Positions 7,106 through 17,264 of a stretch of 20,754 bases of DNA are shown here, piece after piece. The stretch is from a virus. A model generated the notes under the pieces. That model was not told where the DNA came from, made no database searches, and was given only the letters and a program-made list of their open reading frames with translations. The stretch's first letter is position 1. Each line of letters opens with the position of its first letter. Both the position numbers and the translations under genes were made by a program. The stretch spans positions 1 to 20,754 of the IMG/VR virus record IMGVR_UViG_3300028800_000942. One strand, given 5' to 3'.

Positions 7106-7597
7106 ATGAAAAGTATAGCGGAATTTGAAACGTTGTCGGACTTCTTGGAACACTTCAAGGATGAGGAAACCTGCCGAGCGCATTTTGCGGCCATCCGGTT
7201 TGCCAATGGGGAATATTGCCCTCATTGCGGCCATCAGAAAATATACAGCTTCGGCAACGGCAAGCGGTATCGTTGTGCATCCTGCAAGAAGGATTTTACC
7301 ATTGTGACAGGGACGGTGTTTGGTGAAACAAAGTTGCCGTTGCGCAAATGGTTCATCGCAATTTATTTGCTGTCCACTACCAGCAAAGGCATCTCCAGCG
7401 TTCAATTAGCCAAGCACGTCGGCGTGACTCAGAAAACCGGTTGGTTCATGGACCATCGGTTGCGTGAGGCGATCAAAGCCAACAAAGGGAAACTGTTTGG
7501 CGAGGTGGAAGTGGATGAGACTTACATTGGCGGCAAGGTTAAGATGGACGCGCTGGCACCCCTGAGTTCACGCTGCAAAGTTTCCTCATCCATTTAA
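7106..7597 (+). pseudogene. IS1595-family (ISXO2-like) transposase, C-terminally truncated
   Basis: A 163-residue fragment of a protein that is normally about 300 residues. It has the IS1595 zinc ribbon (C38-P-H-C41 and C57-A-S-C60, followed by FTIVTGTVF), the helical LPLRKWFIAIYLLS segment, a helix-turn-helix-like part (VQLAKHVGVTQKTGWFM) and the start of the DDE domain, VEVDETYIGGK, with first catalytic D137. Immediately after GGK the similarity ends and an unrelated 20-residue tail leads to a stop. The other catalytic residues are therefore missing through a deletion near 7540. The enzyme cannot be active, although it could be mobilised by an intact copy elsewhere. Confidence 0.88.
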
Positions 7598-12522: not shown

Positions 12523-13212
12523 ATGAAACAGTTGAAAAACTTTTGGATTGTTGCGGTGGCCGCAGTGCTGGCATTGGCCTATTGTCCGAACGCCGGTGCG
12601 CAGGGGCGCGGGTTTGATTTGTTCGGCCCGGTGCGCTCTGCCATCATCACCACGAACATTCGGCTGATCACGAACAGCTTTCAATCCGACCCGATTTTCG
12701 TTCGGGATTACGAAGGCATCGCCGTGATGGATATTTCGACGCTGACGAACTACGGCACCAACACGGTGCCGATTGAAATTCAAACCTCTTCGGATACCAC
12801 GAATTACAATGACCTGACCAACTATGCGGTTGGCGTATGGACTGGTGTTGTAAAGTCGAATTTCTATTACGGAGTGTCCAGCTACACTTACACCACGAAC
12901 GTGGTTACGAATTCCTACGGCCAGGGAATTACCAATATCACGGCCAGCGGCGCAGGATTGCAGTCAACCAACTGGCTGACGCTTCCAGGAACTCCGACAA
13001 CGCCAACGGCTTCCACGGCGGGATTTGCTACGCCGTATTTATTGCCAGCGCCATTCACCAATTCCGGGATTTACACCAATGCGAACTTCGATTCGACAAC
13101 GGAAATCGCATGGGTGTTGAGAGATCAAGGCCCGTATGTCCGCGTGAAGATTCCCGGCACTGGGACAAATTACCTTTACGCTCAGTTCAAGGCAGTCATC
13201 AGTGGCAATTAA
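12523..13212 (+). CDS. Exported beta-rich, Thr/Asn-rich protein in the head operon
   Basis: A 229-residue protein starting in aaaaattATG. It begins with a classical Sec signal peptide: MKQLKNFW, a hydrophobic core (IVAVAAVLALAY) and a likely cleavage after A-G-A. The cysteine at the end of the core is preceded by Y, so it is not a normal lipobox. The mature part is poor in charge and rich in T, N, S, G and Y, with alternating beta-like segments (VPIEIQTSSDTTNYNDLTNY), like beta-sandwich adhesin or decoration domains. It directly follows the capsid gene, where decoration proteins are common, but a signal peptide would send it out of the cytoplasm. The role is unknown; surface display, exclusion or receptor modification are options. 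Confidence 0.75.
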   Translation: MKQLKNFWIVAVAAVLALAYCPNAGAQGRGFDLFGPVRSAIITTNIRLITNSFQSDPIFVRDYEGIAVMDISTLTNYGTNTVPIEIQTSSDTTNYNDLTNYAVGVWTGVVKSNFYYGVSSYTYTTNVVTNSYGQGITNITASGAGLQSTNWLTLPGTPTTPTASTAGFATPYLLPAPFTNSGIYTNANFDSTTEIAWVLRDQGPYVRVKIPGTGTNYLYAQFKAVISGN

Positions 13213-13225
13213 ACAGGAAAACATT

Positions 13226-13606
13226 ATGCCAAAATTTATCGTCAAATCCGACTTCGCCAACAATTTTGACCCGCCTTTGAAAGTGGAAGGCGCTAAGCAC
13301 GAGCGCCACATTCACAAGGGCGCGGTGATTGTCATCGGTGACCCGAAGGTGGAATTCGAGGACATGGGCGACCGCGACAAAGACCGCGAGTTGTGTTTGC
13401 GCCTCATCGCCGCCGAACGCATCGTCGAGGAAAGCGACGAGAAGGCTGTCAAGAAAATCCGGCGCGAAGTCGAGGATGAAAAACAGCGCGATACCAACAC
13501 GGCGTCAATGACTGCTACCTCGCTCAAGGCGGACAATTTCAAGGCATCGGTTGCGGCGGAAGTTGATAAGGCTCTGGTTGCCGCCGGCGTCAAGAAGGCC
13601 GCATAA
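13226..13606 (+). CDS. Hypothetical head-module protein, 126 aa
   Basis: The start is ATG 13226 (aaacattATG). Residues 1-45 are beta-like (PKFIVKSDFANNFDPPLKVE, HIHKGAVIVIGDPKVEF). Residues 50-90 are highly charged (DRDKDRELCLRLIAAERIVE, EEDEKQRDT region) and likely helical. The C-terminus is an alanine- and lysine-rich helix. I do not recognise a family. Its position after the capsid gene and before the strong terminator suggests a head-completion or accessory capsid protein. No catalytic residues are evident. Confidence 0.65.
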   Translation: MPKFIVKSDFANNFDPPLKVEGAKHERHIHKGAVIVIGDPKVEFEDMGDRDKDRELCLRLIAAERIVEESDEKAVKKIRREVEDEKQRDTNTASMTATSLKADNFKASVAAEVDKALVAAGVKKAA

Positions 13607-16191: not shown

Positions 16192-16404
16192 ATGAGTGAA
16201 GCAGTTGACAATACCAATCAATTGACGGGCAAGCCCCGCAAAATCTCTGACGGCTCAAAGCTCGGCGATGCGACCGAGGCGTTCCATGCGGCGACTTCCC
16301 GCGTTGACCGTAAGAAACTTTTACTGGCGCACCCGGCATTGCAACGGCATTTCCGCATTGACGATTTTGCTGATGTGAAAATCGACGAAGCCCCGGCGAC
16401 TTAA
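16192..16404 (+). CDS. Hypothetical small tail-module protein, 70 aa
   Basis: ATG 16192 is preferred; the frame is open upstream to 16171 with only TTG codons. The protein has a polar N-terminus (SEAVDNTNQLTGKPRKISDG), a helix with LGDATEAFHAATSRVDRKKL and a C-terminal segment ending IDEAPAT. No family is recognised. The last base of its TAA is the first base of the next start (TAATG), so the two are likely coupled. Confidence 0.55.
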   Translation: MSEAVDNTNQLTGKPRKISDGSKLGDATEAFHAATSRVDRKKLLLAHPALQRHFRIDDFADVKIDEAPAT

Positions 16405-16769
16405 TGAAGCGATATTTTTTCATCCTCGCATTGATGTTCACTGTTGGTGCGGCGTTCGGCGCCATAGTGTTCGGCAGTCTGACCACGTTGAATAACTCAA
16501 CGGCAATTTCCGCTTCAAATTCCGTCGGCTCTTTCAGTCTTCCCGCGTTTACTTTGAACGTCACAAATAACGGACTTTCGCAGACGACGGATTTGAAAAT
16601 CATCCAGCGCACGAGTCTCGATGGAACGAACTGGGCAACGAACTACGTTTGGAACCCGCCATCAACAAACGCCGGGACTTATCAAATGGCTTGCCCGGCG
16701 GCGACTCTCACCGTCCTGCAAGACTTTCAGGCCGTCACAACCAACAGCGTTCAATTCGGAGCGTATTAG
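16404..16769 (+). CDS. Exported beta-rich protein, second signal-peptide gene
   Basis: A 121-residue protein with a clear Sec signal peptide: MKRY, a hydrophobic core (FFILALMFTVGAAFGAIVFG) and a probable cleavage near A-F-G. The mature part has S/T/N-rich beta segments, including LKIIQRTSLDGTNWATNYVW, which resembles the IEIQTSSDTTNYNDLTNY segment of the protein at 12523-13212. Both match the pattern of Ig-like beta-sandwich domains ('Q-x-S-x-D-g-T-N-W'). It directly precedes the tail tube gene and follows a coupled small gene. It is a probable relative of the first exported protein; function is not evident. Confidence 0.7.
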   Translation: MKRYFFILALMFTVGAAFGAIVFGSLTTLNNSTAISASNSVGSFSLPAFTLNVTNNGLSQTTDLKIIQRTSLDGTNWATNYVWNPPSTNAGTYQMACPAATLTVLQDFQAVTTNSVQFGAY

Positions 16770-16775
16770 AATTTT

Positions 16776-17264
16776 ATGGCACTTCCAAACGTATTATTGA
16801 CTGGACTGGCGCAGTTCACCGGGGTTGCTGGCGCGATTACCTACGCTTCGGCGGCAATCTATCCGTTGCAACGGAATATCAAGGTCAATCACGATTTCTC
16901 GGCTGAGGAAGGTAAAGACCCGAGCGGATTCGACATCTTCTGGGCCGCTCGCAATGAGTTTTACGAACTGACCATCGGCATGTATCTCGTGGACAGTTCC
17001 GGTTATACCAACAGTCCATCGGCTGGAACTGTTGACAACGCCATCAAAGGCGCGTTCTTTCCGACGCCGATTTCCATCGTCACGCTTTCGGGATTCGGCG
17101 GGGCTCATTCGGCAGATTTCCCGCTTATCAATTCCACGTTCCAAGTTCGGCCAGGTTCAACGATGGATCTCGACCAAATGAAGTGCAATGAACTGGAATG
17201 GAAGTTGCGCCGTTACACCAACGCTGCTCAACAGACTTTGATGGGATTGACGCCGACCGCTTAA
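16776..17264 (+). CDS. Putative major tail tube protein
   Basis: A 162-residue protein, start in gaattttATG. It is beta-rich with few cysteines: LPNVLLTGLAQFTGVAGAIT, FYELTIGMYLVDSSG, ISIVTLSGFGGAHSADFPLI and a C-terminal LEWKLRRYTNAAQ. Length, strand pattern and its position upstream of a tape-measure-like gene are those of tail tube proteins in long non-contractile tails. Sequence similarity to known families is not obvious to me, so the call relies on order and composition. Confidence 0.6.
   Translation: MALPNVLLTGLAQFTGVAGAITYASAAIYPLQRNIKVNHDFSAEEGKDPSGFDIFWAARNEFYELTIGMYLVDSSGYTNSPSAGTVDNAIKGAFFPTPISIVTLSGFGGAHSADFPLINSTFQVRPGSTMDLDQMKCNELEWKLRRYTNAAQQTLMGLTPTA

Follow-up and report, generated by a model that had tools for sequence, protein, structure and literature searches.

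The window analysed here is the whole 20,754-nucleotide stretch of viral DNA spanning positions 1 to 20,754 of IMG/VR record IMGVR_UViG_3300028800_000942. Its major capsid protein (MCP) gene is followed by a gene whose start codon, at 12523, lies 31 nt past the capsid stop codon, in the slot referred to below as MCP+1. This gene, its predicted parts and its neighbours are collected in Table 1.

Table 1. Features at and around the MCP+1 gene of the window.
Feature	Coordinates	Strand	Basis and remarks
Putative Sec-leadered protein of the cement/decoration family	12523..13212	+	229 aa precursor, 203 aa mature; ATG at 12523, stop ends 13212
Predicted signal peptide, residues 1-26, AGA^Q cleavage	12523..12600	+	Rule-based score; conserved in 38 contigs; leader codons of homologue pairs under purifying selection
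Mature N-terminal arm (conserved D32, F34, R38) and predicted first beta-sandwich half, residues 27-101	12601..12825	+	Alignments; matches short leaderless homologues
Central insertion (approximate, ~residues 102-175), clade-conserved PGTxTTPTAaTAG	12826..13047	+	Alignment, hhalign gap; absent in short homologues
Predicted second sandwich half; RYxxxxxTxxGT motif common to 8cjz and 3j4u	13048..13209	+	Profile alignments
Major capsid protein with N-terminal prohead-protease region, 645 aa	10554..12491	+	phrog_617 E 2.8e-118; phrog_3244 head maturation protease E 1e-5; Phage_capsid PF05065 E 9e-33
MCP+2 gene, M.kF....F.......H..KG..f.iG	13226..13606	+	Conserved throughout clade; no family match above noise
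Second predicted signal-peptide protein, 121 aa, 23% Thr+Asn	16404..16769	+	Adjoins putative tail-tube gene; same-slot counterparts in relatives
Putative tail tube protein	16776..17264	+	Position only (gene order versus relatives); no family match

The MCP+1 protein of the window begins MKQLKNFWIVAVAAVLALAYCPNAGA^QGRGFDLFGP, the caret marking the predicted cleavage site. The n-region of this leader bears two net positive charges (+2), its hydrophobic core averages 3.1 on the Kyte-Doolittle scale over 9 residues, and the AGA^Q at its end is a canonical Sec/signal-peptidase-I site. A lipobox with Cys at +1 is absent (Cys21 follows Tyr), so processing by signal peptidase I rather than II would be expected. 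Gln occupies +1 in most homologues, in contrast to the lipobox Cys of lipoprotein-type superinfection exclusion proteins. The mature window protein contains 15.8% Thr, 8.4% Asn and no Cys. Glycosylation was considered as a reason for export and set aside, the mature protein having only one N-x-S/T sequon and unremarkable counts.

Leaders were called with a simple rule written for this analysis, not with SignalP. The rule is positive in 24 of 25 aligned homologues, versus 6% of whole-protein shuffles and 21% when only the hydrophobic first 40 residues are shuffled. The 25th homologue (L071) narrowly misses it and has a signal peptide by eye. Among the short homologues discussed below, one call (L098) is convincing and another (L133, score 3.5) is a weak false positive. 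Across five informative homologue pairs, pN/pS of the leader codons ranges from 0 to 0.33, from which it follows that the leader is translated and that purifying selection acts on it. Such a hydrophobic leader could in principle serve assembly instead of Sec export, for example if the MCP-fused prohead protease removed it, and the MCP does carry a protease domain. This is a most improbable reading, as the charged n-region, h-region and AxA site follow the textbook Sec/signal peptidase I layout and similar leaders occur on fibre-slot genes, far from the action of a prohead protease.

The window protein used as sole query found no match in Pfam, PHROGs, GenBank phages (by tblastn) or IMG/VR viral contigs. 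Homologues were reached through the capsid gene, which led to five related contigs, each with a homologue directly behind its capsid gene, and from these by iterated searches to 38 contigs of uncultivated tailed phages, the window included. All 38 have an MCP+1 homologue, starting 8-73 nt past the capsid stop codon, and all 38 homologues have a signal-peptide-like leader (L071 being counted by eye, outside the rule). The leader mostly ends in AxA^Q and is strongly conserved, though identity between the proteins is only 30-40%. The first-pass annotation had pointed to a Sec signal peptide on a protein encoded directly after the capsid gene; the canonical layout found by rule and its recurrence in 38/38 contigs bear this out.

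In a capsid-protein tree of 92 rows, all 27 leadered rows, the window among them, fall on one side of one branch (SH-aLRT 100). On this tree the leader is a single gain, one predicted change in the ancestor of the clade, which would also have acquired the central insertion. The arm that follows the cleavage site in leadered homologues aligns with the N-terminus of leaderless ones, which makes the leader look cleanly added. On a different branch, a short cement-type protein (L098:6868-7311), the only one of its type to do so, carries its own leader, MKFTNLIFAIVLILTAMIGSKSFA^AGG, apparently through a second, independent gain. The MCP+1 protein at L075:5660-6064 is also leadered and is matched by neither cement profile. 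No named bacterial genome was found with the leadered family except for one contig (L050) filed under a Patescibacteria MAG, which is probably a mis-binned phage. Judging from the length of the leaders (median 22), the clade may have a diderm host.

Distant phages with the same capsid type often have a leaderless protein of ~125 aa in the MCP+1 slot. Profile-profile comparison by hhalign joins the leadered and short MCP+1 families with a probability of 96.9% (E 1.4e-10), aligning both halves of the short protein and leaving a gap at the central stretch of the leadered branch. The family phrog_5707, annotated as function unknown, is matched by 14/14 short and 8/25 leadered homologues, the window protein itself falling short of the threshold. 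The short family in turn leads to the cement protein of BPP-1 (3j4u, E 6.9e-7). A joint profile retrieves 8cjz, deposited as 'Capsid Decoration Protein', with E 0.0039, followed by 3j4u with E 0.12, through both halves in each case. Pfam Bbp16, the family of BPP-1 cement, matches 2 of 41 family members, the window protein not among them. An assignment of 8cjz to phage JBD30 was dropped, since the JBD30 paper gives another, Soc-like fold; the depositors' name is kept. Through its relatives, the window protein is thus linked by sequence to the Bbp16-like/PHROG 5707 cement-decoration family, of which it is a predicted variant.

The BPP-1 cement protein Bbp16 (PF21190) is among the closest known systems. 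It has a jelly-roll/beta-sandwich fold whose two conserved halves match those of the window protein in order, and it is an accessory to an HK97-fold capsid, as the window protein would be. Its N- and C-termini touch the capsid (eLife 2013, PMC3863775). Bbp16 is 140 aa long, is traced from Met1 and has no signal peptide, whereas the window protein has a leader and a central insertion. Adjacency to the MCP gene, seen in 38/38 contigs, and the profile relationship, indirect for the window protein itself, both accord with a cement protein, as does the predicted jelly-roll/beta-sandwich fold described below. The absence of an export signal that would be expected of such a protein does not hold: all leadered homologues and the short L098 protein carry one. 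Because this signal departs from the cement family, the window protein is filed as a variant rather than a standard member. The matches to the short family, the profiles and the fold together argue for a cement/decoration relative with an added leader and a central insertion.

An AlphaFold (AF2) model of the mature protein built with 41 sequences is all-beta (pLDDT 82.3, pTM 0.75); with 5 sequences pLDDT was 43 only. The first-pass annotation had described a Thr/Asn-rich beta protein in the decoration-protein slot and proposed structure prediction as a check. The predicted all-beta fold agrees with that description, as do the composition of the protein and its homology to the cement/decoration family. 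VIA-align ranks YomS first (Z 11.8, 2.7 Å over 108 residues) and the C-terminal domain of XepA second (Z 11.5), with a phage baseplate protein next; 3j4u is not among the VIA-align matches listed. Further matches are chain l1 (137 aa, Z 8.9) of a neck/portal-vertex entry of Agrobacterium phage Milano and chain 0 (135 aa, Z 8.8) of the 7-7-1 capsid. These two alignments cover 115-117 residues, but at an rmsd of ~6 Å they support the relationship without proving it. With Foldseek, no PDB entry matched at a value under 1e-3, and BFVD yielded uncharacterised phage proteins of 115-167 aa with E 2e-4 to 9e-4, mostly at probability 1.00. The fold claims rest on the VIA-align and BFVD matches for this reason.

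From their length and fold, the matched Milano and 7-7-1 chains would be the decoration proteins mCP gp10 (8fwg) and gp002 (9hz8), which would resemble the window protein both in fold and in being encoded next to the MCP gene. In the parts of the sources drawn on here, gp10 and gp002 are described as dimeric jelly rolls that strengthen the shell, and their genes adjoin those of the MCPs gp9 and gp003. The same parts mention no export signal, unlike the leader of the window protein, and describe the Milano protein as disulfide-linked to the capsid, whereas the window protein in its mature form is free of Cys.

The two best structural matches raise another reading. YomS (SPbeta, 6i5o) and XepA (PBSX, 6i56) of Bacillus subtilis are the closest folds, and the C2-like beta sandwich that they exemplify is also predicted for the window protein. 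In the part of the XepA study consulted (PMC6834076), XepA is reported to be exported and missing from phage particles. The window protein might accordingly be a XepA-type lysis helper, a jelly roll exported during phage development, absent from mature particles and acting on membranes. This is very unlikely, because the gene sits in the head cassette in all relatives, and not in a lysis cassette as do those of YomS and XepA, and because the sequence profiles point to cement proteins and not to XepA, no sequence link between the window protein and either protein having been found. The same portion of the study describes YomS and XepA as pentameric discs and attributes no signal peptide to XepA, in contrast to the leader of the window protein. 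It also finds that YomS, and the C-terminal domain of XepA alone, are not cytotoxic, and its authors themselves liken the jelly roll to BPP-1 cement. A brief Pfam look downstream in two longer relatives found no lysis genes.

The MCP+1 protein is not the only late product with a leader. The leadered protein next to the putative tail-tube gene has counterparts in the same region of L022 (10126-10530), L028 (11451-11915), L030 (11649-12125), L031 (13153-13563), L032 (11396-11851), L061 (9537-9938), L147 and probably L063. No known family was found for it, and homology to the MCP+1 protein was tested and none detected. In longer contigs of the clade, a gene in the fibre slot (418-1183 aa), without family matches, is also often leadered (L168:4737-8288; L172:11579-14773; L174:14112-15689; L174:15691-18294; L175:16405-19044; L178:13121-14377). 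Leadered genes make up 35/217 of the late-operon genes in the clade versus 9/274 in the controls, a set of 17 phages and prophages whose capsid genes are related (Fisher P 8e-7); the enrichment persists without the MCP+1 genes (P 0.001). Besides MCP+1, the late leaders of the clade fall on tail-tube-adjacent and fibre-slot genes, and terminase, portal and MCP genes have none. Three controls (G015, G017, G022) have a leadered gene of 220-805 aa far downstream, so a leadered fibre slot is not exclusive to the clade. Export of fibres and of cement would not be strictly coupled, because a few controls with a leaderless MCP+1 protein have leadered fibre slots.

Tailed-phage particles are held to be finished in the cytoplasm. 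A Sec leader in the decoration slot had been called unexpected from the window sequence, and the universality of the leader in the clade and the homology to the usual cement family of that slot make the combination more so. Computation supports homology to cement proteins, placement at MCP+1, conservation of a cleavable leader and a single origin of that leader. The leading reading, to which we give somewhat less than an even chance, is that the protein is exported by Sec to the periplasm and attaches to virions at lysis. The protein would be translated with the late genes, Sec would export the precursor, signal peptidase I would remove the leader just ahead of the conserved Gln27, and the mature protein would fold in the periplasm. 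When the membrane breaks at lysis, it would join the outside of finished heads. Other leadered virion-surface proteins, from the tail-tube-adjacent and fibre slots, may be added in the same late manner, and until release, export would keep sticky surface proteins out of the cytoplasm and out of contact with immature procapsids. Addition to the virion at lysis is favoured because of the cement family and the unbroken synteny. Against it count the best fold matches, YomS and XepA, which are not decoration proteins, the lack of any Pfam or PHROGs match to the window protein on its own, and the loose coupling of fibre and cement leaders. The open literature searched yielded no precedent for tailed-phage virion proteins with signal peptides or attachment after lysis, an absence that is weak evidence.

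A former cement protein could also have left the virion altogether and now serve only in the periplasm or at the cell surface, in blocking superinfection or changing the surface. The first-pass annotation had suggested such a role. The clade-wide conservation of the export signal and the restriction of the insertion to the exported branch speak for it, and late expression beside the capsid gene is compatible with it. The retention of the MCP+1 position in 38/38 contigs and the lack of a second, leaderless cement homologue in the stretches searched instead argue for a continuing head-related role. The window protein moreover has neither lipobox nor membrane anchor, nor a link to a receptor. No specific sign of superinfection exclusion or of a modified surface was found, and homology, position and the other leaders fit virion-surface proteins at least equally; a purely envelope role is thus considered unlikely. 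If the protein did leave the virion, it would illustrate clearly how a structural gene can be taken over for use at the host envelope.

It is also conceivable that the leader is inefficient or conditional, so that a cytoplasmic share cements heads in normal assembly and the exported share is a by-product or has a second job. Family and position would then be simply those of an ordinary decoration protein. An incidental leader would, however, be expected to decay, and the AxA-Q leader is strongly conserved and under purifying selection; nor was a conserved internal start seen. We regard leaky export as distinctly unlikely.

Attachment of a secreted protein to virions at lysis, the reading preferred here, can be extended to the whole particle. 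A two-compartment virion would have a core of head shell, portal and tail tube made in the cytoplasm, and cement, tail-tube partner and fibres that are secreted by Sec and joined at lysis, possibly after a modification available only in the periplasm. This wider scheme is rather doubtful. A cement relative with an export signal throughout a clade points to an unusual finishing or use of the virus particle, and a conserved leader on that relative, often accompanied by leaders on tail-associated and fibre-slot genes, makes the site at which the virion exterior is added testable.

By eye, one of the fibre-slot sequences resembles a beta-helix spike and one has an esterase-like stretch. Elsewhere in the window, an ORF at 7106-7597, between the terminase and portal genes, combines zinc-ribbon with transposase-like features of IS1595-type appearance and seems to be truncated.
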